Of a stretch of 45,112 bases of DNA, positions 968 to 21,895 are shown in pieces. The position numbers were made by a program, and so were the translations under genes. The notes beneath the pieces were generated by a model. The model saw only the letters and a list, made by a program, of their open reading frames with translations. It searched no databases and was not told the DNA's origin. Source of the stretch: Streptomyces pseudogriseolus (lineage in GTDB: Bacteria > Actinomycetota > Actinomycetes > Streptomycetales > Streptomycetaceae); the NCBI GenBank assembly GCA_002154585.1, contig MUNG01000022.1, forward strand, positions 1 through 45,112, in the 5' to 3' direction. Each line of letters opens with the position of its first letter. Positions within the stretch are counted from its first letter, which is position 1.

Positions 968-2137
968 TCAGACCGCCGCCTCCGTGAGGTCGCCGGGCCC
1001 CACCGTGCCCGGCCCCGCGTGGCCCGACAGGGCGAGGGTCAGGTCCAGTTCGGCGAGCAGACAGCGGATCACGTGCTCCACGCCCGCCTGCCCGTCCAGG
1101 CCCAGCCCGTACACGTACGGACGGCCCACCAGCACCGCGCGGGCGCCCAGCGCGAGCGCCTTGAAGACGTCGTCACCGGTGCGCACCCCGCTGTCGAACA
1201 GCACCGTGAGCCGGTCGCCGACGGCCCGCACCACACCGGGCAGCGCGTCGGCCGCGGCGACCGCGCCCGCCACCTGCCGGCCGCCGTGGTTGGACACCAC
1301 CACGCCGTCCATGCCCGCGTCGGCCGCGAGCCGCGCGTCGTCGGGGTGGCACACGCCCTTCAGGACGATCGGGCCGTCCCAGTTCTCCCGCAGGAACGCC
1401 AGATCCGGCCAGGTCTTCGCCGGGTCGGCGAACATGCCGACGAAGTGCATCACCGCCGCGTTCGGGTCCTCGTGCACCGGCCTGGCGAGGCCTGCCTGGA
1501 ACGCCGGGTCGGTGAAGTAATTGGCGGTGCCCACGCCGTGCAGGAACGGCAGGTACGCCTGGTCGAGGTCGCGCGGACGCCAGGACAGCAGCGGCGTGTC
1601 CAGGGTGACGACCAGCGCGGTGTACCCGGCCGCCTTCGCCCGGCCGAGGAAGGACCGCGCGACCTCCACGTCCTTCGGCCAGTACAGCTGGAACCAGCGC
1701 TCCGCGTTCCCCATCGCCTCGGCGACCTGTTCCATCGGCGTGCTGGACGCGGACGACAGCACGAACGGCACGCCCTGCGCGGCCGCGGCGCGCGCGGCCG
1801 CCGGCTCGGCGTCCGGATGCATGATCGACAGCACCCCGACCGGCGCGAGGGCGAGCGGCGCCGGCAGCGGGCGGCCCAGCACCTCCACCGACAGGTCGCG
1901 CTCGTGGACGTCCCGCAGCATCCGCGGCACGATCCGGCGGCGGTCCAGGGCGGCCCGGTTGGCGCGCGCGGTGCTGCTGTCGCCCGCGCTGCCGGCGACG
2001 TACCCGACCGGGCCGGGGCCCAGGCGCCGCTCGGTCAGCTCCTCCAGCCGGGTCAGGTCGGTCGGCAGCCGCGGCACGGCACCCGTCATCCCGTTCAGGT
2101 AGATCTCGTACTGGAAGTCGGCCCAGTGCTTCGCCAT
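968..2137 (-). CDS. FMN-dependent alpha-hydroxy-acid oxidase, lactate 2-monooxygenase-like
   Basis: A 389-residue cytoplasmic flavoenzyme of the FMN-dependent alpha-hydroxy-acid dehydrogenase family (lactate 2-monooxygenase, lactate or glycolate oxidase), which oxidises L-2-hydroxy acids to 2-oxo acids or, in monooxygenases, to shorter acids. It shows the family active-site motif SNHGGRQ with the catalytic His, substrate-side YWPKD, and the phosphate-binding stretch DSGVRTGDDVFKALALGARAVLVGRPY. The N-terminal MAKHWADFQYEIYLNG resembles actinobacterial lactate 2-monooxygenase-type proteins. The ATG at 2137 is preferred over an upstream extension to 2308 because similarity starts there and GGGCGGGACGG precedes it. 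An inverted repeat 60-80 bp upstream (2197-2216) may be its operator. Substrate is not resolved. Confidence 0.88.
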   Translation of the reverse strand: MAKHWADFQYEIYLNGMTGAVPRLPTDLTRLEELTERRLGPGPVGYVAGSAGDSSTARANRAALDRRRIVPRMLRDVHERDLSVEVLGRPLPAPLALAPVGVLSIMHPDAEPAAARAAAAQGVPFVLSSASSTPMEQVAEAMGNAERWFQLYWPKDVEVARSFLGRAKAAGYTALVVTLDTPLLSWRPRDLDQAYLPFLHGVGTANYFTDPAFQAGLARPVHEDPNAAVMHFVGMFADPAKTWPDLAFLRENWDGPIVLKGVCHPDDARLAADAGMDGVVVSNHGGRQVAGAVAAADALPGVVRAVGDRLTVLFDSGVRTGDDVFKALALGARAVLVGRPYVYGLGLDGQAGVEHVIRCLLAELDLTLALSGHAGPGTVGPGDLTEAAV

Positions 2138-2196
2138 CCGTCCCGCCCTGTCTCGTGATGCCTCGTCGGTGCCTCGGGGCGCCCTCGCGGCCCCGA

Positions 2197-2216
2197 CGCA
2201 TACTGGCCGGTATGCG
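2197..2216. promoter_or_regulatory. Inverted repeat, possible operator of the hydroxy-acid oxidase gene
   Basis: CGCATAC-N6-GTATGCG, two perfect 7-bp arms, lies 60-80 bp upstream of the start at 2137. The size and symmetry suit a dimeric regulator; no regulator is identified. Confidence 0.4.
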
Positions 2217-2393
2217 CCGGTCCCGTCCAGCGTCCGGTGACAGGACGTTCCCTCCGCCCCGGGGGACGCGCGGGGTGTTCGGAGATGACCGCGAAGCGTC
2301 CCTTTCATGACCGCAAGGGGTTTCTATTCGCCCTGCGCACGACGGAATCGGAATGTTTCAGGCCGATTAACGGGCGGCGGTTATTCGGCCATC

Positions 2394-2460: not shown

Positions 2461-2605
2461 GCCACTGATTCAATACGCAATGTTACTGAAATGCATGGGG
2501 TCGAGGTGAGTTTCCGCCGGGGACTCGGCAGACTCCGGCACGCCGGTTCGGCACCACCGAGCACGGGCCGGCAACCGGAAGAAACGAAGCGGAAGGATGC
2601 ACACA

Positions 2606-3040
2606 ATGCGGAACACCGCGCGCTGGGCCATCACCCTCGGTCTCACGGCCACCGCCGTCTGCGCCCCCCTCTCCGGGGCCGCGCTCGCCGCCCCGGGAGA
2701 TGCCCCGTCCGCGCTCTACGCCCCCTCTGCCCTGGTGCTCACCGTCGGCAAGGGCGTCAGCGCGGCGACCGTCACCCCGGAGCGCGCGGTCACCCTGACC
2801 TGTGCACCGGGGCCCTCGGGCACCCACCCGGCCGCGGACTCCGCCTGCGCGGACCTGGCCGCCGTGGGCGGCGACCTCGATGCGCTGACCCGGAGCGAGG
2901 GCGTCATGTGCCCGATGATCTACGACCCGGTGCTGCTCACCGTGGACGGCGTCTGGCAGGGCGAGCGGGTCTCCTACGAGCGCGTCTTCTCCAACGAGTG
3001 CGAGATGAACGCGCACGGCTCGAGCGTCCTCGCCTTCTAG
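2606..3040 (+). CDS. ssi: Streptomyces subtilisin inhibitor (SSI) precursor
   Basis: A 144-residue secreted serine-protease inhibitor of the SSI family (MEROPS I16), which binds subtilisin-like proteases as a homodimer. The signal peptide (residues 1 to about 29, ending AALAA) precedes a mature domain starting near DAPSALYAP. Four cysteines (66, 81, 102, 132) match the two SSI disulfides. The reactive loop reads MCPM-IYDP with P1 Met104, as in the S. albogriseolus inhibitor, which the mature sequence strongly resembles from memory (P1' here is Ile). The ATG at 2606 is preferred over the one at 2597 because GGAAGG (2591-2596) sits 9 nt before 2606 but touches 2597. A strong hairpin follows. 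Confidence 0.96.
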
Positions 3041-8449: not shown

Positions 8450-11275
8450 TCAGGCCAGCTGCCGCCGCACCAGCTCGTGCAGCCGCCCCCGCGTGTCGGC
8501 GAGCAGCTCAGCGGGGGTGCCCTGCTGGACCACCTTGCCGGCCTCCATCACCACCACCCGGTCCGCGTCCAGCACCGTCGACAGACGGTGGGCGATGACG
8601 ATGCGGGTCGCCCGCAGCGCCTTGGTGCTCTCGATGACCGTGCGCTGCGTCTCGTTGTCCAGGGCGCTGGTCGCCTCGTCGAAGAAGAGGATCCGGGGCC
8701 GGCGGATCAGCGCCTGGGCGATCATCAGCCGCTGCCGCTGACCACCGGAGACCGCGCCGCTGCCGGAGACGATGGTGTGCAGCCCCATCGGCATCCGGCG
8801 GATGTCCTCCGCCAGACCCGCCATCTCCGCCGCCGCCATCGCCTCCTCCGGCGTGTACGGCTCGCTCCCGCAGATCACGTCCATGATCGACCCGGTGAAC
8901 GGCTGCGCGTGCTGGAGCACCACACCGCACTGCCGCCGCACCGCCGACCGGTCGAGCGCGGCCAGGTCCTGGCCGTCGTACAGCACGCTGCCGGACAGCG
9001 GGCGGTCGAAGCCGATCAGCAGCCGCAGCAGCGTCGACTTGCCGCAGCCGCTCGGGCCGACGACCGCCACGAACTCGCCCGGCCGCGCCTCGAAGGACAC
9101 GTCGTCCAGCACCAGCGGGCCGTCGTCGGTGTAGCGGAAGGACACCCGCCGCGCCTCGATCGCGCCGGTCAGCGGCCCCGGACGGGTGCTCGCCACGCGG
9201 ACCTCGGGCGTCGCGTCCAGCACCGGCTTGATCTGTTCGAACAGCGGCAGTGCGGCGACCGCCGAGACGAACGAGCCGGTCAGCTGCGTGACCGAGGTCA
9301 GCACCATCGTCACCGACGTGTTGAAGGTGAGGAACTCCGCCGCCGTCATCGACCCGCGCGCCGGGCCCGCCAGCAGCATGAACATCCCCAGCGTGCACAG
9401 CGGCAGATAGACCGCGCCCAGCACCGCCGTCAGGTTCTTGATCCGCCCGGCCTTCTGCTGGAGCTCCCGGCTGCGCGCGAACTGCGACGCCCACGCCGCG
9501 TACGCGTAGTTCTCCGCCGCCGCCACCCGCAGCTTCGGCAGTCCGCGCAGCGTCTGGAACGCCTGGTTGTTCAGCTTGTTGGTGAGCACCACCAGCCGCC
9601 GCTGCCAGCGCACCTGCCACAGCCCCAGCCCCAGGAACACGCCCGCGATCACCACCAGCATGCCCATCGCGGCCAGCGCCATCGGCACGCTGAACCACAG
9701 CAGCAGCGCCAGGTTCACCGCCCCCACCGTCACCGACTGGGTCACCGTGGGGCCCACCCCGGCCAGCATCCGGCGGATCGCGCTGATGCCCATCGCCGCG
9801 CTCGCCAGCTCACCCGTGGACCGCTCCGTGAAGAACCGGGTCGGCAGCCTCAGCAGCCTGTCCCACACGGCCGGCTGGAGCGTGGCCTCCACCCGGCCCT
9901 CGAGCCGCAGCAGCGTGAGGTTCTGCAACAGCATGAACGCGGCCGCGACCACACTGCTCAGGATCACCGCCAGACACACCTGCACGATCAGGTCCGTCTG
10001 CGCCTTCGGCACGTACTCGCCGAGCACCCGGCCCGTCGCCAGAGGCACCAGCGCCCCCAGCACCACCGTCACCAGACCGCTCAGCACCAGCCCCGTCAGA
10101 TCGCCGCGGGTGCCGCCCATGCAGAACCGCACCAGCCGCAGCGGGCTCAGCCCCCGCTCGGGCAGCGGGCGGTAGAACATCACCGCACGCGGCTCGAACT
10201 CCTCGGCGTTCGCCTTCTCCACCGGGGTCTCCCGGCCGGTCGACGGATGCACGGCCACATAGCCGCCGCGCCGCCACAGCAGCGCCACCGGCGCCCCCGA
10301 CAGCGCGCGACGGCCCACCAGCGGACCCACGTCGTCGCGCCACCACCGGCCCTCCAGCCGCACCACCCGGGTACGCAGCCGCGAGGCCAGCGCCACCTGC
10401 TCCACCGGGTCCAGCCGGTCGGCCCCGGTCCCGGACTGCGCGGGCGGGGCCAGGGAGATCCCGGCCGCCCGCGCCACCAGCTCGCAAGCCGCGTACGTGG
10501 CGTCCGCGTCCGCGGCCGTCGTGCGCCGGTCCGACCTCTTCCCGATCGACGCGAGCAGCGTCCGGTCCGCCTGCGCCCGCACCGCCTCACCGGCCGCGAT
10601 GCCCTGCGCGGTACGCGTCTCGTGCGTCTCCTCCAGCTGCTCGATCCACCGGTCGAGCGTGGTCATCAGCCGGTACTGCTGGTCGACCATGGTCTGCCAC
10701 AGCGCCGGGTCCATCAGCAGGTCGGCCGCGGCCTCCGCGCCGTACAGGGAGCCGTACTGCACGCTGCCCGGCGGCACCTGCATCCAGAACACGTCGTCGT
10801 CGGCGGGCGCCGCCGCCCGCTCCGTCGCCATCGGCGCCTGGAACAGCACCGCGAGGCTCCGGCCCACGCCCAGCGCGAGCGCGTACTCCAGCGGACTCGT
10901 CGTCGGCGGCACGTACTGCGGGTTGCCGTACTCGTCGTACGACCAGGTCTGGGTGTGGGCCTCCTGGTACAGCTCGCGCAGCGCGATGCGGTGCACCACG
11001 CAGTCCCGCAGCGGCCGCGCCACCAGCGTGTGCGCCGGACCGGCCACCGGGCCGAGCACCAGCGAACCCGCCTCGAGACGGCCCAGGTGGTGCCAGTGCC
11101 CCTGCTGCTCCGCGTCCACCGCGAACAGGTCCACGGCCCCGGACGCGATCAGCCACAGCACCTGCGGCCCGTCCAGGTCCAGCTTCCCGAACCCGGAGCA
11201 GTCGATCGGGGTGCCCAGCGCGCCGAGCGCGCCCAGGACGACGTCGCCGCCCTGCCCCTCCTGCACGGCAGTCAT
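8450..11275 (-). CDS. NHLP-family bacteriocin export ABC transporter, permease/ATPase subunit
   Basis: A 941-residue protein. The N-terminal ~400 residues are a cytoplasmic domain characteristic of the second ABC protein of NHLP-type export systems, with a cyclic-nucleotide-binding-like start (DLFAVDAEQQGHWHHLGRLEAGSLVLGP). A six-helix ABC exporter domain follows (about 415-690), then an ATPase with Walker A GPSGCGKST, signature VSGGQRQR, Walker B ILFFDEATSALD and H-loop IAHRLS. It lacks the C39 peptidase domain, which its partner carries. The start lies 1 nt from the partner's stop, so the pair is co-translated and probably forms a heterodimeric exporter for a double-glycine leader peptide. 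Its end nearly meets the convergent SRPBCC gene. Confidence 0.93.
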   Translation of the reverse strand: MTAVQEGQGGDVVLGALGALGTPIDCSGFGKLDLDGPQVLWLIASGAVDLFAVDAEQQGHWHHLGRLEAGSLVLGPVAGPAHTLVARPLRDCVVHRIALRELYQEAHTQTWSYDEYGNPQYVPPTTSPLEYALALGVGRSLAVLFQAPMATERAAAPADDDVFWMQVPPGSVQYGSLYGAEAAADLLMDPALWQTMVDQQYRLMTTLDRWIEQLEETHETRTAQGIAAGEAVRAQADRTLLASIGKRSDRRTTAADADATYAACELVARAAGISLAPPAQSGTGADRLDPVEQVALASRLRTRVVRLEGRWWRDDVGPLVGRRALSGAPVALLWRRGGYVAVHPSTGRETPVEKANAEEFEPRAVMFYRPLPERGLSPLRLVRFCMGGTRGDLTGLVLSGLVTVVLGALVPLATGRVLGEYVPKAQTDLIVQVCLAVILSSVVAAAFMLLQNLTLLRLEGRVEATLQPAVWDRLLRLPTRFFTERSTGELASAAMGISAIRRMLAGVGPTVTQSVTVGAVNLALLLWFSVPMALAAMGMLVVIAGVFLGLGLWQVRWQRRLVVLTNKLNNQAFQTLRGLPKLRVAAAENYAYAAWASQFARSRELQQKAGRIKNLTAVLGAVYLPLCTLGMFMLLAGPARGSMTAAEFLTFNTSVTMVLTSVTQLTGSFVSAVAALPLFEQIKPVLDATPEVRVASTRPGPLTGAIEARRVSFRYTDDGPLVLDDVSFEARPGEFVAVVGPSGCGKSTLLRLLIGFDRPLSGSVLYDGQDLAALDRSAVRRQCGVVLQHAQPFTGSIMDVICGSEPYTPEEAMAAAEMAGLAEDIRRMPMGLHTIVSGSGAVSGGQRQRLMIAQALIRRPRILFFDEATSALDNETQRTVIESTKALRATRIVIAHRLSTVLDADRVVVMEAGKVVQQGTPAELLADTRGRLHELVRRQLA

Positions 11276-11276
11276 T

Positions 11277-13499
11277 TCATCGCTCCCTGACCAGCGCCGC
11301 GTACGCCCCGCCCCGCGCCACCAGCTCCTCGTGCCGTCCGCGCTCCACGACCGTGCCCTGGTCCAGGACGACGATCTCGTCGCTGTCGCGGACCGTGGAC
11401 AGCCGGTGCGCGATCACCACGCACGCGCAGCCGCGGCGGCGCAGGTTGTCCATCACCACCAGCTCCGTCTCGGCGTCCAGCGCGCTGGTCACCTCGTCGA
11501 GCACCAGGATGCTCGGCCGGCGCACCAGCGCCCGCGCGATCTCCAGACGCTGGCGCTGACCGCCGGAGAAGTTCCGGCCGTCCTGCTCGACCGGACTGTG
11601 GATGCCGCCAGGACGGCGCACGATCACCTCGTACAGCGCCGCGTCCTTCAGCGCCTCGACCACGGCCTCGTCCGGGATCGACGGGTCCCACAGCGCCACG
11701 TTGTCCCGCACCGTCCCCTCGAACAGGAACACGTCCTGGTCGACGAACGACACGGACGCGGCCAGCGCCCCGCGCGGGATGTCCTCGATGCGCTGCCCGT
11801 CGATCCGGATCACGCCCTCCCACGGGGTGTAGAGCCCCGAGATCAGCCGCGACACGGTCGACTTGCCGCTGCCCGAGCCACCCACCAGCGCCACCTGCCG
11901 GCCCGGACCCACCGTCAGGTCGAAGCCGGTCAGCAGCGGCTTGTCCAGCGGGTTGTAGCCGAAGGTGAGGTTCTGCAGCTCCACATGGCCGTGCAGCCGC
12001 CGGGTCGACTCGCCGGCGCCCGGACGGCCGTACAGCGGGTCCGCCCGGAAGTTCTCGACGTCCTTCAGCCGGGCCACGTCGGCGGCGAAGTCCTGGATGC
12101 GGCCCGCCACCCCGTTCAGCCGGGTCAGCGGCGCGGTGAACCGGGCGACCAGCGCCTGGAAGGCGACCAGCAGACCGACCGAGATGTGCCCCTCCACCGC
12201 CCGCATGCCGCCGATCCACAGGATCAGCGCGCTGTTGAGCGTGGCCAGCGTCGGCGCGACGACGCCGAGCCACGCGCTCGGCACCCCGAGCCGCTGCTGC
12301 TCCTCCAGCGTGGTGGCGTGCTGCCCCGCCCACTTGCGGAAGTAGCCGTCCTCACCGCCGGTCGCCTTCAGCGTCTCGATCAGCTGGAGCCCCGTGTACG
12401 CGGTGTTGGTGAGCCGCGCCGTGTCCGCGCGCAGCTTCGCCGTGCGGGTCGCGCGCAGCCGGATCACGATCCGCATCGCCAGGATGTTCAGCAGCGCCAC
12501 CCCGATCCCGACGAACGTGAGCTGCGGGTCGTACGTGTAGAGCAGCACCGCGTACAGCACCACCACCACGGCGTCGACGCCCGCCGCCGACAGGTCGCGG
12601 GCCAGTGTCTCGGCCACCGCGTCGTTGGACTGGAGCCGCTGCACCAGGTCGGCGGGGCTGCGCTGGGAGAAGAACGTCACCGGCAGCCGCAGCAGATGGC
12701 GCAGGAACCGCGCGCTGGACAGCGTGGACGAGATCAGCCGGCCGCGCAGCAGGTTCGCCTGCTGGAGCCACGTCAGCAGCAGTGTCAGCAGCACACAGGC
12801 GCCCATCGACGCGAACAGCACGTCCAGCATCGACGTCCGCTGCCCGATCAGGAACTCGTCGATGAAGGTGCGGCTGAGGCCCGGCACCGCCGCGCCCACC
12901 GCGACCAGCAGCAGACTGGTCAGCACCACGGCGGGCATGGTGCCCGCGGTGCCGCGCAGCCGGGCCGGCATCGCGCCCAGCACGCCCGGCCTGCGGCCGC
13001 CGCGGGTGAAGTCCTCGCCGGGCTCCATCACCAGCACCACGCCGGTGAAGCTGCCGTCGAACTCCTCCAGCGGCACGAACCGGCGGCCCTTCGCCGGGTC
13101 GTTGACGTACACCCCGCGGCGGCCGAAGCGGCGGCCCATGCCGTCGTAGACGACGTAGTGGTTGAACTCCCAGAACAGGATGGCCGGCGCCGTCACCTCG
13201 GCGAGGGCGGCCAGGTCCATCTGCATGCCCTTGGCGGTCAGCCCGTAACTGCGGGCCGCCTTCAGCAGGTTGCTTGCGCGCGAGCCGTCCCGTGAGACGC
13301 CGCACGCGATGCGCAGCTCCTCCAGCGGCACATGACGGCCGTGGTGGCCCAGCACCATCGCGAGCGAGGCGGCGCCGCACTCCACGGCCTCCATCTGGAG
13401 CACGGTGGGCGTACGGACCGTCTTCGCGCGGGACCTGGGCACCTTGCGGCGGGGCGGGGCGGCACGGCGTCTGCCGCGGGTCTCCTGTGCGGTGCTCAC
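11277..13499 (-). CDS. NHLP-family bacteriocin export ABC transporter with C39 peptidase domain
   Basis: A 740-residue peptidase/permease/ATPase. The N-terminal C39 (papain-like) domain cuts leaders after Gly-Gly: catalytic Cys41 in AVECGAASLAM, His114 in EFNHYVVYDG, Asp134 in VYVNDPAKG, all intact. The exporter helices and an ATPase follow, with GGSGSGKST, FSGGQRQRLEIARAL, LVLDEVTSALDAE and VIAHRLS. The GTG at 13499 is chosen because it overlaps the stop of the HlyD gene as GTGA and removes a 34-residue extension lying in that gene. The obvious substrate is the precursor at 14450-14665. Confidence 0.94.
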   Translation of the reverse strand: MSTAQETRGRRRAAPPRRKVPRSRAKTVRTPTVLQMEAVECGAASLAMVLGHHGRHVPLEELRIACGVSRDGSRASNLLKAARSYGLTAKGMQMDLAALAEVTAPAILFWEFNHYVVYDGMGRRFGRRGVYVNDPAKGRRFVPLEEFDGSFTGVVLVMEPGEDFTRGGRRPGVLGAMPARLRGTAGTMPAVVLTSLLLVAVGAAVPGLSRTFIDEFLIGQRTSMLDVLFASMGACVLLTLLLTWLQQANLLRGRLISSTLSSARFLRHLLRLPVTFFSQRSPADLVQRLQSNDAVAETLARDLSAAGVDAVVVVLYAVLLYTYDPQLTFVGIGVALLNILAMRIVIRLRATRTAKLRADTARLTNTAYTGLQLIETLKATGGEDGYFRKWAGQHATTLEEQQRLGVPSAWLGVVAPTLATLNSALILWIGGMRAVEGHISVGLLVAFQALVARFTAPLTRLNGVAGRIQDFAADVARLKDVENFRADPLYGRPGAGESTRRLHGHVELQNLTFGYNPLDKPLLTGFDLTVGPGRQVALVGGSGSGKSTVSRLISGLYTPWEGVIRIDGQRIEDIPRGALAASVSFVDQDVFLFEGTVRDNVALWDPSIPDEAVVEALKDAALYEVIVRRPGGIHSPVEQDGRNFSGGQRQRLEIARALVRRPSILVLDEVTSALDAETELVVMDNLRRRGCACVVIAHRLSTVRDSDEIVVLDQGTVVERGRHEELVARGGAYAALVRER

Positions 13500-14302
13500 G
13501 GCAGCAGCCAATCCACGGGACGCCGGTCGGCCAGCCGGATCGAACCGTCGGCCAGGGTCATCGACGTCAGCTCGAACGGCGGGCCCTGGGCCGAGGACCA
13601 CGCGTAGCCGCTCTCCGTGCTGTCGGAGCGCTTCAGCTTCACGGTGACCGCCACCGGCCTGCCGTCCCGGGTGAACTCCTCGCCCAGCTGGGTGTCGCCG
13701 AGGAACGCGGCGATCTGCCGCGGGGACTGGGCGGAGCGGTCCACCTCCGTCACCTCGCCGCGCAGCACGCCGTACTCCTGGCTCGGCACCGACTGCACCG
13801 TCAGGTCGACGAGGGCGTGCGCGGGAATGCCGGCGGCCTTCTGCGCGGGGACGTACACCGTCGCGTACAAGGGGGAGCCGGCGCCGCGCACCTTCTCCAC
13901 CGCGGCGACGTCCGCGCCGGTCGAGATGATCTGCCCGGCGCTCGCGGCGAGCGCGGTGACCCGGCCCGCCTGAAGGGTGCGCACGGTCTCGTCGCCGTCC
14001 GGTGTACGCACCTTGAGCACGGGGGAGTTCGCCGGCAGCCGCTCGCCCTCGCGCGCGAGCACGGCGACGACCTGACCGGCGACGGGACTCTGCAGGATGT
14101 AACTGCCCTGCCCGTACGTGAGGACGGCGGGCGCCTGGACCGTGGAGGTGACCGAGCCGGTCAGCGCCCAGACGGACGCGGCGGCCATCGCGATCACGGT
14201 GACGGACAGCACCAGCCAGCCCTGCGGGCGGGCGAAACGCACCGGCAGGTCGAGTTCCTCCGGCGACTGGAGCTTGGCGAGGGCCTGTTGACGGAATTGC
14301 AC
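13496..14302 (-). CDS. HlyD-family adaptor of the NHLP export system
   Basis: A 268-residue membrane-fusion-type protein with a short cytoplasmic N terminus, one membrane helix (about residues 29-48, WLVLSVTVIAMAAASVWAL), then a lipoyl/barrel-sandwich domain (APAVLTYGQGSYILQSPVAGQVVAVLAREGERL and AGRVTALAASAGQIISTG). It is typical of the secretion protein that accompanies NHLP ABC transporters. The GTG start at 14302 has GAGGGAAG upstream. It is first in the three-gene export operon, separated from the precursor gene by a strong hairpin. Confidence 0.9.
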   Translation of the reverse strand: MQFRQQALAKLQSPEELDLPVRFARPQGWLVLSVTVIAMAAASVWALTGSVTSTVQAPAVLTYGQGSYILQSPVAGQVVAVLAREGERLPANSPVLKVRTPDGDETVRTLQAGRVTALAASAGQIISTGADVAAVEKVRGAGSPLYATVYVPAQKAAGIPAHALVDLTVQSVPSQEYGVLRGEVTEVDRSAQSPRQIAAFLGDTQLGEEFTRDGRPVAVTVKLKRSDSTESGYAWSSAQGPPFELTSMTLADGSIRLADRRPVDWLLP

Positions 14303-14398: not shown

Positions 14399-14431
14399 GA
14401 GTCCCGGAGCCGGGGAACGGCTCCGGGACTC
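14399..14431 (-). terminator. Hairpin between precursor and export genes (attenuator-like)
   Basis: GAGTCCCGGAGCCG and CGGCTCCGGGACTC are perfect 14-bp arms around GGGAA. It starts about 19 bp after the precursor stop. Such partial terminators let a peptide gene be transcribed more than its exporter. Confidence 0.8.
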
Positions 14432-14449: not shown

Positions 14450-14665
14450 TCAGAGACCGGCGACCAGGTTGGTGACCGGGGCCGTGTTCAGGCCGGTGAC
14501 ACCCTCGACGGTGCCGACGGCCGTGTCGACCAGGCCGGAAACCGGGGCGATGCTGTCCAGGGCACCGGTGAGGGTGTTCACGGCGTTCACGGACAGACCG
14601 CCGGAGACGGCGTCGAGCTCGGTGTCGGAGATCTCGACGGTCTCGACCTGGGGGGTGGAGTTCAT
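14450..14665 (-). CDS. Double-glycine leader peptide precursor, NHLP-exported, Cys-free core
   Basis: A 71-residue precursor. The leader (residues 1-23) contains VETVEISDTELDAVSGG, a classic Gly-Gly processing site for the C39 peptidase encoded just downstream. The predicted core (24-71) has no Cys, Lys, Arg, His or aromatic residue; its charged residues are D37, D47 and E54. It consists of two imperfect repeats (28-46 and 49-68): AVNTLTGA matches AVGTVEGV, and APVSGLV matches APVTNLV. ATG 14665 is preferred over the GTG at 14695 because GGGAAG lies 7 nt before it. Similar peptides are, to my recollection, auto-named 'type A2 lantipeptide', but without Cys no lanthionine can form and no Lan enzyme is present in the window. 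Confidence 0.87.
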   Translation of the reverse strand: MNSTPQVETVEISDTELDAVSGGLSVNAVNTLTGALDSIAPVSGLVDTAVGTVEGVTGLNTAPVTNLVAGL

Positions 14666-15242
14666 GATGGAACTTCCCTTCGTATGGACTTTCACAAGGG
14701 GGGAGCGGCCCCCCTCTGGGGACAGATGAAGGCCGCGACCGCGGGCGCTCCGAGCGCCCGTCGCCGGGAGCCCGGAACGGCCTTGCGGTGCGATGGATCA
14801 AAGCACGCGGCCACCGGCCGCTTCCAATCCCTCACCCGCCTCACCAGGCAACTTGCGTCCACAAGGCCCCCAAGCGTGCAGACGAGGGCACGGCTCGGGG
14901 GCGAGTTCTTCACATGGGCCACCGCATCGACGCATCCGGCCACTTGCGCCCCCCTGGCCGGAATCCGACACACCGGCCGCAAAGGCGTGTCCCGGATGGG
15001 CGCCCTGTGAACGGACGGCGGGTCAGGTGACCGGGTTGGGCAGTCGCTGTGCAGATTCGCCGAAGCCGGGATTCGGGCCGGGGCCGGGCACGGAGCGTGT
15101 GTGTTCCGTGGCGCACGGTGAGCACCGCGGACCGCGTTGAACACTCCTCAACTCCCTTGCGTACCAACGACCGTCCAGGCGCCCCGAACAGCCGCCGCCG
15201 GACGGCGGCACGACTCCGGTCCCCCACAGGAGGTCGAGAAGT
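14666..15242. other. 577-bp non-coding divergent promoter region
   Basis: This lies between the precursor gene and the S1 protease gene. It has a 19-bp palindrome (14742-14760: CGGGCGCTC-C-GAGCGCCCG) 77-95 bp upstream of the precursor start, and GTTGA-N7-TCAAC (15136-15152) about 90 bp upstream of the protease start in a locally AT-rich patch. No convincing further gene was found. Confidence 0.6.
14742..14760. promoter_or_regulatory. 19-bp palindrome upstream of the precursor gene
   Basis: CGGGCGCTC-C-GAGCGCCCG, perfect 9-bp arms, 77 bp upstream of the precursor ATG. Candidate operator; no regulator known. Confidence 0.4.
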
Positions 15243-16496
15243 TTGAGTCACAAGCGAATCCCGAAGCGCAAGGCCGCGATAGCGGTGGGCGGTGTGGTGG
15301 CCCTCGGCGCCGCCGCGATCCTGCTCCCCAGCGCCAACGCCTCCCAGGACGGCGCGCCGGACGACGCCGCGGCAGCGCCCAGGACCCTGAAGGCGGGCGA
15401 CGCCTCCGACCTCGCCGCCCGGCTCGCCGGCACGCTCGGTGACGCCTACGCGGGCGCCTGGTACGACGGCGAGGACAAGCGGCTCGTCGTCAACGTGGTG
15501 CGCGGCGAGGGCGACATGGCCCTGAAGGTCCGCAGCGCGGGCGCGGAGGTGCGCGAGGTCGACAACAGCATGGCCGAACTCCAGGCCGGTGCGGGCACGT
15601 TGAAGTCGGAGGCGACCATCCCCGGCACGTCCTGGGCGGTCGACCCGCGCACCAACAAGATCCTCGTCACCGCGGACAGCACGGTCACCGGCGACAAGTG
15701 GGACCGGCTGGAGTCCACCGTCGAGAGCCTCGGCTCCGGCATGGCCACCCTCAAGAAGTCCGAGGGCACCTTCCGCACCTTCGTGTCCGGCGGCGACGCC
15801 ATCTTCGCGGGCGGCGCCCGCTGTTCGCTCGGCTTCAACGTCACCGCGGGCGACGGCAGCCCGGCGTTCCTCACCGCCGGACACTGCGCCGCCGCCGGCG
15901 ACGCGTGGTCCGACCAGCAGGGCGGCGAGCCGATCGCCACGGTCGACCAGGCGCTGTTCCCCGGCGACGGCGACTTCGCGCTCGTCAGGTACGACGACCC
16001 GGCCACCGAAGCCCCGAGCGAGGTGAACGTCGGCGGGCAGACCGTCCCGATCGTCCAGGCCGCGGAGGCCACCGTCGGCCAGCAGGTGTTCCGCATGGGC
16101 AGCACCACCGGCCTCGCCGACGGGCAGGTGCTCGGCCTCGACGCCACGGTGAACTACCCCGAGGGCACGGTCACCGGACTCATCCAGACCGACGTGTGCG
16201 CCGAGCCCGGCGACAGCGGGGGCTCGCTGTTCACCCAGGACGGTCTGGCCATCGGCCTGACCTCCGGCGGCAGCGGCGACTGCACGGTGGGCGGCGAGAC
16301 GTTCTTCCAGCCTGTCACCACGGCGTTGGAGGCGGTCGGTGCGACGCTGGGTGACGGTGGCGGCGCGGCCGCCGGTGATCAGGCCGACGGCCAGGACGCC
16401 GGGGCCGAGCAGGACGGTGCGGGTGGCGACCAGGGCGTCCAGGAACAGTCGGACATGGGCTCCGACCGCCACTCGGGACTGACCCGGACGCACTGA
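15243..16496 (+). CDS. Secreted S1 (streptogrisin / alpha-lytic protease-type) serine protease
   Basis: A 417-residue preproprotease. A signal peptide (Arg/Lys-rich start then AAIAVGGVVALGAAAILLPSANA) is followed by a pro-domain of the alpha-lytic type (to about residue 180) and a chymotrypsin-fold domain. The triad is His214 (LTAGHC), Asp244 (GDFALVRY) and Ser325 (EPGDSGGSL), with the usual disulfide cysteines. A Gly/Asp/Gln-rich tail of ~60 residues follows and looks disordered. The TTG start has a perfect AGGAGGT at 15228-15234. It is transcribed away from the NHLP precursor; a role in processing that peptide is possible but unsupported. SSI, encoded in the same window, inhibits proteases of this general secretome. 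Confidence 0.92.
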   Translation: MSHKRIPKRKAAIAVGGVVALGAAAILLPSANASQDGAPDDAAAAPRTLKAGDASDLAARLAGTLGDAYAGAWYDGEDKRLVVNVVRGEGDMALKVRSAGAEVREVDNSMAELQAGAGTLKSEATIPGTSWAVDPRTNKILVTADSTVTGDKWDRLESTVESLGSGMATLKKSEGTFRTFVSGGDAIFAGGARCSLGFNVTAGDGSPAFLTAGHCAAAGDAWSDQQGGEPIATVDQALFPGDGDFALVRYDDPATEAPSEVNVGGQTVPIVQAAEATVGQQVFRMGSTTGLADGQVLGLDATVNYPEGTVTGLIQTDVCAEPGDSGGSLFTQDGLAIGLTSGGSGDCTVGGETFFQPVTTALEAVGATLGDGGGAAAGDQADGQDAGAEQDGAGGDQGVQEQSDMGSDRHSGLTRTH

Positions 16497-17064: not shown

Positions 17065-19191
17065 TCAGCGCGCAGCTTTGAGCAACAGCACCGCCGTGTC
17101 GTCCAGCCGGTCCGCCGCGTGCGGGCCGTGGCGGACCAGCGCGTCCGCGAGGTCGTCCAGCGGCAGATCCCCCAGCTCGCCCAGCCGCCGGCACAGCTCG
17201 GCGAGCGCGTCCTCGAAGTCGACGCCCGGCGACTCCACCAGACCGTCGGTGTACAGCACCAGCAGCGATCCGGGCGGCAGCGCCACCTCCGTCGACGGGT
17301 AGGCCGCCGCGCCGTCGATGCCCAGCAGCGGCCCGCCCGCCAGGTCCAGCACCCGCACCCGGCCGTCGGGGCGGCGCAGCAGCGGGGGCGGATGCCCGGC
17401 CCGGGACATCACGGCCCGCCCCCGCGAAGGGTCGAGCCGCAGGTACAGGCAGCTCGCGAACAGCTCGGCGCCCAGGTCCAGCAGCAGCCGGTTGGTGCTG
17501 CGCATCACCTCGTCCGGGGCCTGCCCCACGGCCGTGTAGGCGTGTACCGCCGTGCGCACCTGCCCCATCAGCCCGGCCGCCGTCACGTTGTGCCCCTGCA
17601 CGTCCCCGATCACCGCCGCGGCCACCCCCTGCGTCGGCACCAGGTCGTAGAAGTCGCCGCCGATCTCCATGCCCCGGGTGGCGGGCAGGTACCGGGCGGC
17701 GGCCTCGATCCCGTCCAGCGCCGGCAGGGTGTGCGGCAGCAGGGCCTCCTGGAGCCCGTGCGCGAGCCGGTGCTTGACGTCGTAGAGCATCGCCCGCTCC
17801 AGCGCCTGGGCGATCAGCCCCGCCAGACTGGTCAGCACCGCCCGCTCCTCCGTCGCGAACCGGTGCGGCGCCCCGTACGACAGCACGCACGTCCCGACCG
17901 GGCGGCCCGAGGCGATCAGCGGCAAGTACGCCCACGCCGAGAACTCCGAGGGGTGTGTCTGCAGCGCCGGGTACAGCCGCTCCAGTTCCTCCCGCGACTC
18001 GAAGAAGGCGGGCACGCCGGTGCGCAGCACCTGGCCGCCCGGAGTCGGCTCGGACAGCGGCAGCCCGTCGAACCGCTCGACGACCTGCGGGTCCGCGTAC
18101 CCGCGGTGTCCGAGGACGCGCAGCCGGCCCGCGCGGGAGCCGAGGACCACCAGGCCCTGGCCGCCCACCGCCGGCACGATCTCGTCCGCGACCAGCTGCA
18201 CCACGTCCTGCACCCCGACCGCCTCGGTCAGCGCACCGGCGAGGCCCAGCACCTGGGTGATGGTCACCAGCCGGTCCCGGGCCGCACCCGGCGGGGGAGC
18301 CGCACGGTTCATCTCCGTCACCGCGCGCGCCCTGCTGATCCGCATGCTGAGGCCGGTGGTGCTCGGGTACAGCCGGAAGGACAGCCAGGTGTCGGGCGGC
18401 CGCAGCGCGACGAACGACGTGACGTGCTGGCTGAACAGCGCCGCCCGGTACCGGTCCTCGTACACCGGGTCGTTCAGCCACGGCACCGCCGCCCACAGGT
18501 GCCGGTCCAGCAGCCCGTCCGACGCGACGCCCAGCAGTTCGGACGCGGCGGCGTTGGCGAACGCGACCCGCCCGTGCAGATCGAGCGAGCACAGCCCGTA
18601 CGGCAGCCGGGCCACCATCCGGGCCGCCTCCACCGTGCCCAGCGACCCGGCCACCCCGCCCACCACCGGCGCGGCCAGCAGGTCCGGCTCGGGCGCGAGC
18701 GGCAGGCTGTGCTCGGCGGCCCGCTCGAGCCGCACCGCGAGCCGGTCGCAGACCGCGGTCAGGTGCTCGCGCTCCCAGTCGGACAGCTCCGGCGGGTGCG
18801 AGCCCGGCCAGGTCACGAAGACCGCGCCGTACGTCTTCGCCGGCGTCGCCACCGGCAGCGCGGCCAGGGCGAAGGGATAGGGGAGGACCATGGCGATCCG
18901 GGGGTAGCGGAGCGCCATCTCCTCCTCGCCGGCCACCCACACCAGCCGCCGTTCGCGCACCGCGGCGGAGACGGGGATCGGCGCGCTCAGCCCGATGCGC
19001 TCCCACGGCGCGGCGAAGGCGCGGGGCAGCCCGGCCATCACCGCCATCTCCAGGACGGGCTGGTCCGGGGAGAGGAGGTACACGGCGCCGGAGTGGGCGT
19101 GGACCTCGTCCATCAGCGCCGCGAGCGTCAGCGACAGCAGCGGACGGCCGACGGGGGCGCGCGTGCGCGCGGAGGCCTGTCCCTCGGACAT
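17065..19191 (-). CDS. GAF-PAS-GAF-SpoIIE-type PP2C protein phosphatase
   Basis: A 708-residue cytoplasmic sensor phosphatase. A GAF-like region (about 15-165) is followed by a PAS domain (GLCSLDLHGRVAFANAAASELLG, from about 200), a second GAF (about 315-470), and a SpoIIE/PP2C domain with the metal-binding signatures EIGGDFYDLV, IGDVQGHNVTAAGLMGQ, LYTDGLVESPGVDFEDAL and RLDDTAVLLL. Such proteins dephosphorylate anti-sigma-factor antagonists and so control alternative sigma factors. The ATG at 19191 has GAGGAGGT upstream. It is divergent from a similar protein that also has an ATPase domain; this one lacks it. Confidence 0.92.
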   Translation of the reverse strand: MSEGQASARTRAPVGRPLLSLTLAALMDEVHAHSGAVYLLSPDQPVLEMAVMAGLPRAFAAPWERIGLSAPIPVSAAVRERRLVWVAGEEEMALRYPRIAMVLPYPFALAALPVATPAKTYGAVFVTWPGSHPPELSDWEREHLTAVCDRLAVRLERAAEHSLPLAPEPDLLAAPVVGGVAGSLGTVEAARMVARLPYGLCSLDLHGRVAFANAAASELLGVASDGLLDRHLWAAVPWLNDPVYEDRYRAALFSQHVTSFVALRPPDTWLSFRLYPSTTGLSMRISRARAVTEMNRAAPPPGAARDRLVTITQVLGLAGALTEAVGVQDVVQLVADEIVPAVGGQGLVVLGSRAGRLRVLGHRGYADPQVVERFDGLPLSEPTPGGQVLRTGVPAFFESREELERLYPALQTHPSEFSAWAYLPLIASGRPVGTCVLSYGAPHRFATEERAVLTSLAGLIAQALERAMLYDVKHRLAHGLQEALLPHTLPALDGIEAAARYLPATRGMEIGGDFYDLVPTQGVAAAVIGDVQGHNVTAAGLMGQVRTAVHAYTAVGQAPDEVMRSTNRLLLDLGAELFASCLYLRLDPSRGRAVMSRAGHPPPLLRRPDGRVRVLDLAGGPLLGIDGAAAYPSTEVALPPGSLLVLYTDGLVESPGVDFEDALAELCRRLGELGDLPLDDLADALVRHGPHAADRLDDTAVLLLKAAR

Positions 19192-19447
19192 GCCGACCAC
19201 CTCCTCGCTCGGGCCGCACCCTGCACGTACCCCGATCCGCGGCCGTGAGGCTCGCCAGGCCCCGGCCCCGGCGGACCCCGCGACGTCCGGCGGGACCCGG
19301 TCACGCACCGTCGCGGGCAGGCACACCCGGCGCAGTCGCGGGCGCCCCGAACCGCGCGCCGGGCGCACACCCCGTGCGGACAGCGGCGCGCCCCGGCCGC
19401 GCGCCGTTCGCGCACAGGGGCTGCGCCCGTGTCCCTTTGGCGCTGTA

Positions 19448-21895
19448 ATGGCCAACGTGGTCGGTGAGGGCGCTGCGGGACGCAGCACGAGAACGCTGCG
19501 CGCCGAAGGCGCCCTGGGCGCGCTCGCGGCCGACCCCCAGGCGCCCGACCGGCTGCGCCGCATCCTGGAGCAGGCCCTGGTCTTCGCCGGGGCCGCCTTC
19601 GCCGGCTTCTACACCCTCGGCGAGGACGGCGAGCTGCTGTGCCTGGCGGAGTCCGCCGGGGTGCCGCGCACCCTGTGCGGGGTGCGCGACTGCTACTCCG
19701 CGGCCGGCCGCGGCCCGGTCGCCGAGGCGCACCGCGGGCGGGCGGTGTGGCTCGGCCCGAAGGACCTGGCCGCCCAGTCCCAGTCGCGGCGCACGCCCCG
19801 CCGCGAGTTCCACCTCGCCGCCCTGCCCGTGCGCCACGACGGCGGCGGCTGTCTGCTCGCGGTGAGCGAGCGGCCCGGCGGCTTCGACGCCGACGACCGG
19901 ACGTGCCTCGCCCTCGTCGCCGACGCCGTCGCCTTCCCCGCGCCGCCCGTCACCGCCGAGGGCGCGGACCTGCCGCCGGGCGGCTTCACCCTCGCCATGG
20001 ACACCGGCCGCCTCCGCGTGCACGACGACGTCCTGGACCTGTTCGGACTCGACCCGGACGACTTCGACGGGCGGGTGGAGACGCTGCTGGGCCTCGCCGT
20101 CCCGGAGGACCTGCCCTCGCTGATGTCCGTGGTGGAGGCCGACCACATGACCATCGGCGACCGCGAGCTGGAGTTCCGGGTGCTCCAGCCCGCCGGATCC
20201 CCCCGGTGGCTCCGGCTGCGCGGCCGGCTGGAGCACGGCGGCGAGGGACACCCGGCCCGCCTCGTCGGCACCGTCGCCGACGCCTCCTCGCTGCGCGCCG
20301 ACGTCACGGACGTGGCCCGGGTGCAGCGCCTGGCCGCCGCCCTGTCCACCGCCGTCACCGTGCGGGACGTCGGCAAGGCCGTGGTCGCCGCGCTGCGCCG
20401 CCCGCTGCGCGCCGACCGGATCGCGCTCGCCGAGCTGGAGAGCGACCGGCTGGTCGTCACCGTCCTCGACCCGCCCGAGCCGGAGGCCTGGCCGCAGGTG
20501 TGGCGGTCGGAGTGGCGCACCGAGTGGCCCGACGCCCCGGTGCGCACCATGCCGACGCTGGCCTCGGCGCTGCGCGAGGGCCGCCCCGCGACATGGCCGG
20601 CCGGCTCCCCGCTCGAACCGGCCCTCGCCGAGGTGGGCCCGGGCGGCCTGGCCGTGCTGCCGCTGCCCGCCGGCAACCGCATGGCCGGCGCCTGCCTCGT
20701 CGGCTGGGACGCCCCGCACGAGATCGGCGCGGACGAGCGCACCCTGCTCACCGCCGCCGCCAACCTGGCCGGGCAGGCCCTGACCCGGGCCCGCGCCTTC
20801 GACGCCGAGCACGAGCTGGTCGGCATGCTCCAGCGGCAGCTGCTGCCACGCCGGCTGCCCCGGCTGCCGGGCGCGGTCGCCGTCGCCCGCTATCTGCCCA
20901 GCACCGCGGGGCTGGAACTCGGCGGCGACTGGTACGACGTCATCCCGCTGCCCGACAACCACGTCGCCCTCGTCATCGGGGACGTGCAGGGCCACAGCGC
21001 CGGCGCCGCCACCCTCATGGGGCAGATGCGCACCGCCCTGCGCGCCTACGCGGTCGAGGGACATCCCCCGGACGTGGTGGTCTCCCACGCCAACCGGCTC
21101 CTCGTCGACCTGGAGACCGACCTCTTCGCCACCTGCGCCTACGTCGACGTCGACATGGAGGCGGGCGCCGCCTGGTGCGTGCGCGCCGGGCATCTGCCGC
21201 CGGTGCTGCGCCACCCGGACGGGCGCACCGAGATCGCGGAGGCGGAGGGCGGCCCGCCGCTCGGGGTGGTGCGGCAGTGCGACTTCCCCATGAGCCCGCT
21301 GCGCCTCCAGCCGGGCACGCTGGTCGCGCTCACCACGGACGGCCTGGTCGAGACGCCCGACTCGGACATCGACGCGGGCATGGAGCGGTTCGCCCGGCAG
21401 GTGGCCGCCTCCGACCCCGCCGACCTCGGGCCGGTCGCGGACGCCCTGCTCGGCAAGGCGCTCCGCAGCGACGACGTGGCGCTGCTGCTGATGCGCTACG
21501 ACGGCATGGACACCCGCCCGCTGCGGGAGAGCTGGACCGTGTGGCGGGTCCCGCAGGCGGTCGGCCACGCCCGCCGCTTCACCCGGCGCACCCTGCGCTC
21601 CTGGGGCGTCACCGAGGAGATCGACGCACCGCTGCTCGCCGTGTCCGAGCTGGTCACCAACGCCCTGGTGCACACCGACGGCAAGGTCCGCCTCGACCTC
21701 ACCCTGATCGGTGACCGGCTGCGCCTCGCCGTCGCGGACGCCTCGCCGCGCTCGCCGGTGCGGCCCACCAGCATCGGCTGGGAGGCCACCGGGGGCCGCG
21801 GCATCCTCCTCGTCGAGGCGGTGTCGGCGGCCTGGGGCACCCTGCCGGTCAGCGGCGGCAAACAGGTCTGGGCGGAGTTCACCGTACGGCGCTGA
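19448..21895 (+). CDS. GAF/PAS/SpoIIE phosphatase fused to HATPase_c (RsbW-like) domain
   Basis: An 815-residue protein. A first GAF-like domain (about 20-150), PAS-like region (about 175-280), second GAF (about 290-445), SpoIIE phosphatase (about 460-685; LELGGDWYDVI, IGDVQGHSAGAATLMGQM, TTDGLVETPDSDIDAG, SDDVALLLM), and a C-terminal anti-sigma-type ATPase (about 690-815) with the N-box VSELVTNALVHT and G-box ATGGRGILLV. It could thus dephosphorylate an antagonist and bind a sigma factor in one polypeptide. No clear ribosome-binding site precedes ATG 19448, so the start is the least certain point. A CBS protein follows 72 bp later. Confidence 0.9.
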   Translation: MANVVGEGAAGRSTRTLRAEGALGALAADPQAPDRLRRILEQALVFAGAAFAGFYTLGEDGELLCLAESAGVPRTLCGVRDCYSAAGRGPVAEAHRGRAVWLGPKDLAAQSQSRRTPRREFHLAALPVRHDGGGCLLAVSERPGGFDADDRTCLALVADAVAFPAPPVTAEGADLPPGGFTLAMDTGRLRVHDDVLDLFGLDPDDFDGRVETLLGLAVPEDLPSLMSVVEADHMTIGDRELEFRVLQPAGSPRWLRLRGRLEHGGEGHPARLVGTVADASSLRADVTDVARVQRLAAALSTAVTVRDVGKAVVAALRRPLRADRIALAELESDRLVVTVLDPPEPEAWPQVWRSEWRTEWPDAPVRTMPTLASALREGRPATWPAGSPLEPALAEVGPGGLAVLPLPAGNRMAGACLVGWDAPHEIGADERTLLTAAANLAGQALTRARAFDAEHELVGMLQRQLLPRRLPRLPGAVAVARYLPSTAGLELGGDWYDVIPLPDNHVALVIGDVQGHSAGAATLMGQMRTALRAYAVEGHPPDVVVSHANRLLVDLETDLFATCAYVDVDMEAGAAWCVRAGHLPPVLRHPDGRTEIAEAEGGPPLGVVRQCDFPMSPLRLQPGTLVALTTDGLVETPDSDIDAGMERFARQVAASDPADLGPVADALLGKALRSDDVALLLMRYDGMDTRPLRESWTVWRVPQAVGHARRFTRRTLRSWGVTEEIDAPLLAVSELVTNALVHTDGKVRLDLTLIGDRLRLAVADASPRSPVRPTSIGWEATGGRGILLVEAVSAAWGTLPVSGGKQVWAEFTVRR

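Follow-up and report, generated by a model that had tools for sequence, protein, structure and literature searches.

The window, a 45,112-nucleotide stretch of Streptomyces pseudogriseolus DNA, contains a short precursor gene followed 3′, on the same strand, by genes for an HlyD-like protein and two ABC proteins (ABC1 and ABC2), with a hairpin between precursor and exporter and a bipartite promoter-like element before the precursor (Table 1). The precursor consists of the leader MNSTPQVETVEISDTELDAVSGG and the core LSVNAVNTLTGALDSIAPVSGLVDTAVGTVEGVTGLNTAPVTNLVAGL; the core lacks C, K, R, H, F, W and Y, and D37, D47 and E54 are the charged residues in it. An earlier note on this DNA had described a leader ending in SGG and a core of this residue content and charge, and translation of the open reading frame agrees with it. 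TIGR03796 and TIGR03797, the criterion for an NHLP-type export system, both score above their curated cut-offs in the window. By eye, a GTG near 13499 is the likelier start of ABC1.

Table 1. Features of the window: the precursor-exporter locus and other genes mentioned in the text
Feature	Position	Strand	Description
HlyD-like membrane fusion protein	13496..14302	-	TIGR03794 142.4 bits, just below the cut-off of 156.2; best family by far
ABC1, C39 peptidase / permease / ATPase	11277..13601	-	TIGR03796 1023.3 bits, cut-off 853.3
ABC2, permease / ATPase	8450..11275	-	TIGR03797 887.9 bits, cut-off 709.4
Precursor ORF	14450-14665	-	71 aa + stop
Leader peptide	14597..14665	-	23 aa; terminal SGG; double-glycine, C39 type
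Core peptide	14453..14596	-	48 aa; Cys-free, hydrophobic, GRAVY 0.88; unmodified monoisotopic mass 4560.45 (calculated)
14-bp perfect hairpin	14399..14431	-	between precursor and exporter genes
Bipartite element TTGG-N18-TGCTTTGATC	14796..14827	-	conserved before orthologues and satellites
S1-family protease with alpha-lytic prodomain	15243-16496	+	divergent from precursor
PAS/GAF-SpoIIE phosphatase gene	17065-19563	-	near main locus
Subtilisin inhibitor-like (SSI) protein	2597-3040	+	about 12 kb from precursor
FMN-dependent alpha-hydroxy acid dehydrogenase family	968-2308	-	resembles MftD and L-lactate dehydrogenases, under their cut-offs

Leader, core and hairpin

On sequence evidence, namely protein-level conservation and purifying selection, the precursor is a real gene. 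Among 80 distinct DNA sequences from close relatives, pN/pS was 0.43 for the leader and 0.42 for the core, and values of about 0.4 indicate only moderate constraint. None of the family models matched the precursor above its cut-off. The matches that fell below were weak, and the best of them were double-glycine leader models (PF04604, 15.0 bits, cut-off 21.7; NF038167, 15.8 bits, cut-off 32; NF033772, 15.1 bits, cut-off 85; TIGR01847, 13.5 bits, cut-off 15.7). A leader related to nitrile hydratase or Nif11 was not matched in the same family-model scan. The earlier note had spoken of an NHLP-exported precursor, which has to be corrected: the leader is of the short double-glycine type, without NHase or Nif11 similarity, and the exporter alone is of the NHLP-associated type. 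A double-glycine leader and an ABC exporter with a C39 peptidase, the two parts of the class II bacteriocin layout, are both present.

AlphaFold gave no confident fold (mean pLDDT 58.6), and the prediction was of too low a quality to base a fold search on. The amphipathicity of the window core was not significant, either as a helix (p=0.12) or as a strand (p=0.93), and the core contains a GxxxG stretch (GTVEG). Self-alignment of the core paired SVNAVNTLTGALDSIAPVSGLV best with AVGTVEGVTGLNTAPVTNLV, with a score of 30 against 19.5 +/- 4.0 in 500 shuffles (p=0.022). The two-repeat core proposed in the earlier note is therefore present in the window in a weak form. It is not a conserved trait: among 14 other family members, six gave p<=0.025 (L031, L053, L105, L117, L121 and L135), and eight gave p values from 0.085 to 0.815 (L112, L129, L138, L163, L164, L165, L170 and L198). 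Since the repeat is clear in only these six relatives, we regard repetition as a tendency in part of the family rather than as one of its defining features.

The hairpin between precursor and exporter is conserved: stems of at least 9 Watson-Crick pairs were found in 138 of 144 loci and in 2 of 144 simple (mononucleotide) shuffles, and the 138 hairpins have 77 different 5′ arms. Of 28 loci for which its position was listed, 19 have it beginning 12-25 nt from the first stop-codon base. No run of T follows it in the window, so we read it as a putative attenuator or mRNA stabiliser.

Distribution, composition and neighbourhood of the family

With the window protein as query (E<=1e-3), a precursor match was found in 248 of 392 Streptomyces genomes. 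We divided the same genomes by their exporter, using a split of our own on TIGR03797, into 286 with matches better than 1e-150 (282 of them above the curated cut-off) and 106 with weaker ones. All 248 precursor-positive genomes were exporter-positive, the 106 genomes with weaker exporter matches lacked both, and none of the 392 had a precursor without an exporter (Fisher 9e-64, a statistic that ignores kinship among the genomes). For the 38 genomes that were exporter-positive but had given no precursor match, we then read the exporter loci. In 32 of them HlyD is preceded by a diverged precursor that lacks Cys and has a leader of the same type, and tblastn recovered one more (L188); in three (G309, G120 and G320) the contig or stretch stops short of the precursor site, and G188 and G038 have a distant exporter type alone. 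A leader model, A2, was found in 218 of 221 exporter-positive genomes and in none of 74 exporter-negative ones, the exceptions being G038 and G188, which have only a distant SagB exporter locus, and G120, in which the contig with the exporter stops short of the place expected for the precursor. In a class-wide sample of 394 genomes the family alignment matched 30, all from Streptomyces (one of 137 genera); the secretion module is restricted to Streptomyces in the sample searched.

We collected 172 precursors, 137 of them distinct when the window's own is excluded, and checked linkage to HlyD or the exporter for the 80 close loci, 20 of 30 diverged loci and the set of 38. The family includes two clades so diverged that a search with one sequence missed one from the other, and the main core is alike across many species. 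The earlier note had asked whether the absence of Cys is conserved in homologues, and it is: 136 of the 137 distinct precursors are Cys-free (the window's own is not counted), L128 being the sole exception. The Cys that thioether rings of class II lanthipeptides need is accordingly absent from the window core and from 136 of 137 homologues. The 137 cores are 42-62 residues long; Trp occurs in none of them, Lys in 1, Phe and Tyr in 3 each, Arg in 11 and His in 21, and the net charge is -1 to -5 in 132 and 0 in 5. V, G, T, A and L make up 75% of core residues despite wide sequence divergence, Thr and Ser together 20%, and 116 of the 137 precursors end in AGL. Between the clades, composition rather than motif is retained.

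Gene order was examined in a close set, the best 80 of 252 loci, and in the 20 diverged loci. HlyD lies 3′ of the precursor in every locus of both sets (80/80 and 20/20). In the close set ABC1 is also present in 80 of 80 loci and ABC2 in 79, the missing one being on a 3.6-kb contig, and the order precursor-HlyD-ABC1-ABC2 holds in 19 of 20 diverged loci, L153 stopping after HlyD. Beyond precursor and exporter, nothing recurs in order in the 20 diverged loci. When likely ORFs of 56 loci were clustered, the most frequent extra genes were those for an MFS transporter, in 10 loci, for an AMP-binding enzyme, in 8, and for a P450, in 6 (inside the examined stretch), the others listed being in 5 or fewer. 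By ORF clustering and family scans, no modification gene recurred in more than 6 of the 56 loci, and LanM was found neither among the scanned neighbours in the window nor among the recurrent neighbour clusters of the 56. The absence of a consistently co-occurring linked modification gene, a second check that the earlier note had set, thus held in the diverged loci and in the clustering. No recurrent candidate for an immunity gene emerged, as no extra gene was present in more than 10 of the 56 loci and the commonest was the MFS transporter, and the neighbour clusters of these loci contained no recurrent receptor gene beside the module.

Three neighbours were considered and rejected as parts of the module. 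The divergent serine protease, a candidate maturing protease, is present in 78 of 80 close loci, but no locus among the 20 diverged ones has it as an adjacent gene, and homologues lie several kb away in three (L144, L146 and L156); we therefore read it as regional synteny. An exopolyphosphatase gene (57 of 80 close loci) and a haem-oxygenase-like downstream gene (47 of 80), both counts being limited by locus ends, occur in 0 of 20 diverged loci. PAS/GAF-SpoIIE phosphatase homologues lie in 6 of the 20 diverged stretches and near two satellites described below (L266, 3604-5748, plus strand; L267, 1310-2485, plus strand); such genes may simply be common in Streptomyces. In one locus (L199, genome G145), two leader-bearing precursors lie upstream of the exporter, and the ABC1 and ABC2 matches are about 2 kb apart.

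Relatives of this exporter that serve modified peptides show their enzymes, in contrast to the present family, in which none is visible. Four distant Streptomyces loci (L196, L197, L200 and L201) encode a homologous exporter, with 32-39% identity to the window's HlyD and 48-50% to its ABC1. All four carry a SagB-family dehydrogenase gene upstream of HlyD, and L196 and L197 also a gene for a YcaO/TOMM cyclodehydratase, at a place that the precursor alone occupies in the present family. L200 and L201 have a 117-aa ORF just downstream whose match to the NHLP leader is weak (24.1 and 27.3 bits; cut-off 50.9).

Satellite precursors and the promoter-like element

The leader occurs once in 125 and two to five times in 93 of the 221 exporter-positive genomes. 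We placed 15 of the extra copies; relative to the main gene, each is either on a different contig or over 0.5 Mb away. Reading of 20 such regions gave 21 unlinked satellite peptides, 13 found by a pattern in 12 regions, while the other 8 regions yielded one apiece to a looser pattern, a second frame in L275 being set aside. They are rich in Gly, Ala and Val, and their cores differ, forming at least five groups by eye. Four of the 21 (L258, L259, L268 and L274) have one Cys in otherwise Gly/Ala-rich cores and could form disulfide-linked dimers; lack of Cys is therefore not a uniform property of the satellites. The window's own genome has a satellite (G000:C79, L262, 2859-3086, minus strand) of 75 aa with the same leader and an unrelated 52-aa core, and TadE-like and type II secretion F-like genes lie upstream of it. 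In the 6-kb surroundings of 12 satellites, a neighbour gene was shared in three pairs alone (L264/L272, L266/L267 and L264/L259). Among 56 likely ORFs around these 12 loci there was no Pfam match at E<=1e-8 for LanM/LanC, LanB, YcaO or radical-SAM enzymes; a methyltransferase gene lies beside one satellite and an acyltransferase gene beside one. Going by the common leader, the satellites are very probably exported by the exporter of the main locus, with the reservation that co-occurrence of leader and exporter is no proof of this.

Main and satellite genes are preceded by the same 12-mer, CGTGCTTTGATC, often with TTGG 18 bases ahead of TGCTTTGATC; an exact copy stands before the L262 satellite. 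In the window the 12-mer is at 14796-14807, its start 142 nt from the precursor ATG, and a search for TTGG-N21-TTTGATC with at most one mismatch gave this element as the single match in the window, where 0.04 were expected. The element resembles an extended -10 promoter (TGnTTTGAT). Matches with 0-1 mismatch lie within 500 bp upstream of 104 of 109 close genes (some species being counted twice), 23 of 30 diverged, 14 of 33 clade-2 and 10 of 13 satellite genes. In the remaining three satellites even the best match has 2 to 4 mismatches. Many of the clade-2 members carry a related variant, for example CGTGCTTACATC. In a control, 10 of 390 random windows also had 0-1 mismatch, and some of these may overlap the true site on which the loci were centred; we therefore place weight on searches of whole genomes.

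In 19 genomes, the exact 12-mer occurred at 20 sites, all within 12 of 13 precursor-positive genomes (12 of the 13 being exporter-positive by TIGR03797, and G516 lying outside the exporter search), with none in 6 exporter-negative genomes and none for the reversed control. A leader peptide follows 19 of the 20 sites, 17 by an automatic pattern and two more (L279 and L287) by eye; the one site that none follows, G049:C1:373069, looks like chance. The bipartite form occurred once each in 65 of 150 genomes, comprising 65 of 110 exporter-positive and 0 of 40 exporter-negative ones, and all 30 of the 65 sites that were examined in context precede a peptide. One bipartite site outside these 30 (G078:C331) lies on a different contig from the exporter of that genome. 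The specificity of the element is as expected of the site of a dedicated regulator or sigma factor.

Interpretation and comparison with known systems

A counterpart of the precursor is on record for S. coelicolor: we identify SCO0753 as such by synteny and length, not by alignment. In its passages on this gene, PMC6629963 describes SCO0753 as a hydrophobic, conserved, Cys-free product encoded upstream of the exporter SCO0754-0756. It was the most induced gene in a dispersed SCO5282-D125G strain (log2 6.3), in which SCO0754-0756 were induced by log2 4.25-4.4, these genes being almost silent in the null mutant. The same passages call export of SCO0753 by SCO0754-0756 likely, propose an altered hyphal surface, report strong control by SCO5282/SCO5283 and state that this pair is present in all StrepDB Streptomyces. 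Elsewhere SCO0753 is listed as a bacteriocin gene (PMC5733086), as is SCO0756 (PMC6414726), and the counterpart is also classed as lanthipeptide-like. Labels of this kind on the S. coelicolor counterpart, which has no Cys and no linked lanthionine enzyme, misdirect searches for natural products. A separate paper, PMC13047742, mentions a ‘type A2 lantipeptide’ gene.

We propose, with a probability of roughly 0.6, that the family consists of leader-cleaved peptides without a dedicated maturase, one exporter serving main and satellite substrates, and that the products act at the cell surface. The earlier note had inferred an unmodified peptide, self-assembling or signalling, made by leader removal alone; its reading is supported in part, by the Cys and linked-gene results but not as regards a conserved two-repeat core. 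The precursor would be the main substrate of a Streptomyces peptide secretion module, in which the 23-residue leader would take the peptide to the C39-type ABC exporter with its HlyD partner and second ABC subunit. The C39 peptidase of ABC1 is predicted to cleave after Gly-Gly, and the 48-residue hydrophobic core would then leave the cell with no dedicated post-translational modification. Stand-alone satellite precursors, which have the leader and the promoter-like element in common with the main gene, would very probably be served in the same way, and as the element is common to them, precursor, exporter and satellites may be switched on together. The hairpin probably holds exporter transcripts below those of the precursor, which the unequal fold changes of SCO0753 and the exporter genes in S. 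coelicolor (PMC6629963) would fit. Outside the cell, the cores are most likely surface-active or assembling peptides on the hyphal surface. We favour such a role because composition is kept while sequence drifts, because no receptor or immunity gene recurs, and because of the surface-related phenotype of the published mutant; it is the weakest step of the scheme, based on composition and published expression data.

It is unlikely that the peptides are class II-type unmodified bacteriocins used against other bacteria, with the diversified satellite cores as an arsenal. A double-glycine leader joined to a C39 ABC exporter is how class II systems are classically built, the window core has its GxxxG stretch and the satellite cores differ among themselves, but the anionic main core is unlike most class II bacteriocins, its likeness in many species would be odd for a weapon in an arms race, and no recurrent extra gene of the 56 loci is fit for immunity, unless immunity resides within the module or elsewhere. 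Leaders of this kind were likened to those of TIGR01847 bacteriocins by Haft et al. (2010; PMC2887384). We consider it just as improbable that the product is a RiPP modified, for instance by Ser/Thr dehydration or epimerisation, by a maturase whose gene lies at some other place in the genome. The Thr/Ser-rich cores would suit such an enzyme, unlinked maturases are known for some RiPPs and related NHLP-type exporters adjoin SagB and YcaO; against this stand the conserved Cys-free state and the lack of a maturase gene found consistently with the module or at the 12 satellite loci scanned.

We give somewhat less credence still to a signalling peptide, a pheromone for which a two-component system, SCO5282/SCO5283 for example, would be the sensor. 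The strong control by this pair (PMC6629963) and the dedicated promoter-like element would be in keeping with signalling, but no receptor gene recurs beside the module, the core retains composition rather than a motif between clades, and a pair found in all StrepDB Streptomyces (PMC6629963) contrasts with a module that is absent from 106 of 392 genomes.

Taking unmodified, leader-cleaved peptides as the preferred reading, we tentatively extend it, at a little short of even odds, to a secretion regulon: one exporter, one leader, a private element with a near-exclusive regulator, and an expandable set of unlinked satellites with unrelated cores. Such a regulon would be a plug-in platform able to export any core placed behind its leader and promoter and to decorate or remodel the hyphal surface. 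A Cys-free exported peptide is already in print for S. coelicolor (PMC6629963); as far as searches of the open literature show, the genus-wide regulon is undescribed, and they returned no publication on the satellites or the element in open-access sources. If the regulon exists, knocking out one exporter and a single mass-spectrometry run could expose the whole set of secreted peptides. The element would also provide a handle on the regulator and on the link to pelleted versus dispersed growth reported for S. coelicolor.

Class II unmodified double-glycine bacteriocins and microcins have the same leader type and a C39 ABC exporter with an accessory protein. The present family differs from them in its anionic core, its additional ABC2, its confinement to Streptomyces in the sample and its lack of a recurrent immunity candidate in the loci clustered. 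NHLP/Nif11 (N11P) RiPP systems have several precursors with a common leader, as here. They also share with the module the exporter set TIGR03796/TIGR03797/TIGR03794, the last scoring just under its cut-off here, and double-glycine cleavage (PMC2887384); in contrast to those systems, the leader here is short and without a nitrile hydratase or Nif11 match, the cores are Cys-free and no TOMM or lanthionine enzyme is consistently linked. According to Haft et al. (2010, PMC2887384), some NHLP/N11P members are found in species that lack enzymes of this sort. SCO0753-SCO0756 is also among the close systems. The passages of PMC6629963 on SCO0753 report no satellites, promoter element or genus-wide co-occurrence; the arrangement they give is the same as in the window, with precursor, HlyD and two ABC genes followed by an exopolyphosphatase gene (SCO0757). 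The 77 aa given there for SCO0753 equal the length of several orthologues in our set if an in-frame MKGSSI extension is counted, and there, as here, the peptide is hydrophobic, Cys-free and kept in many Streptomyces.
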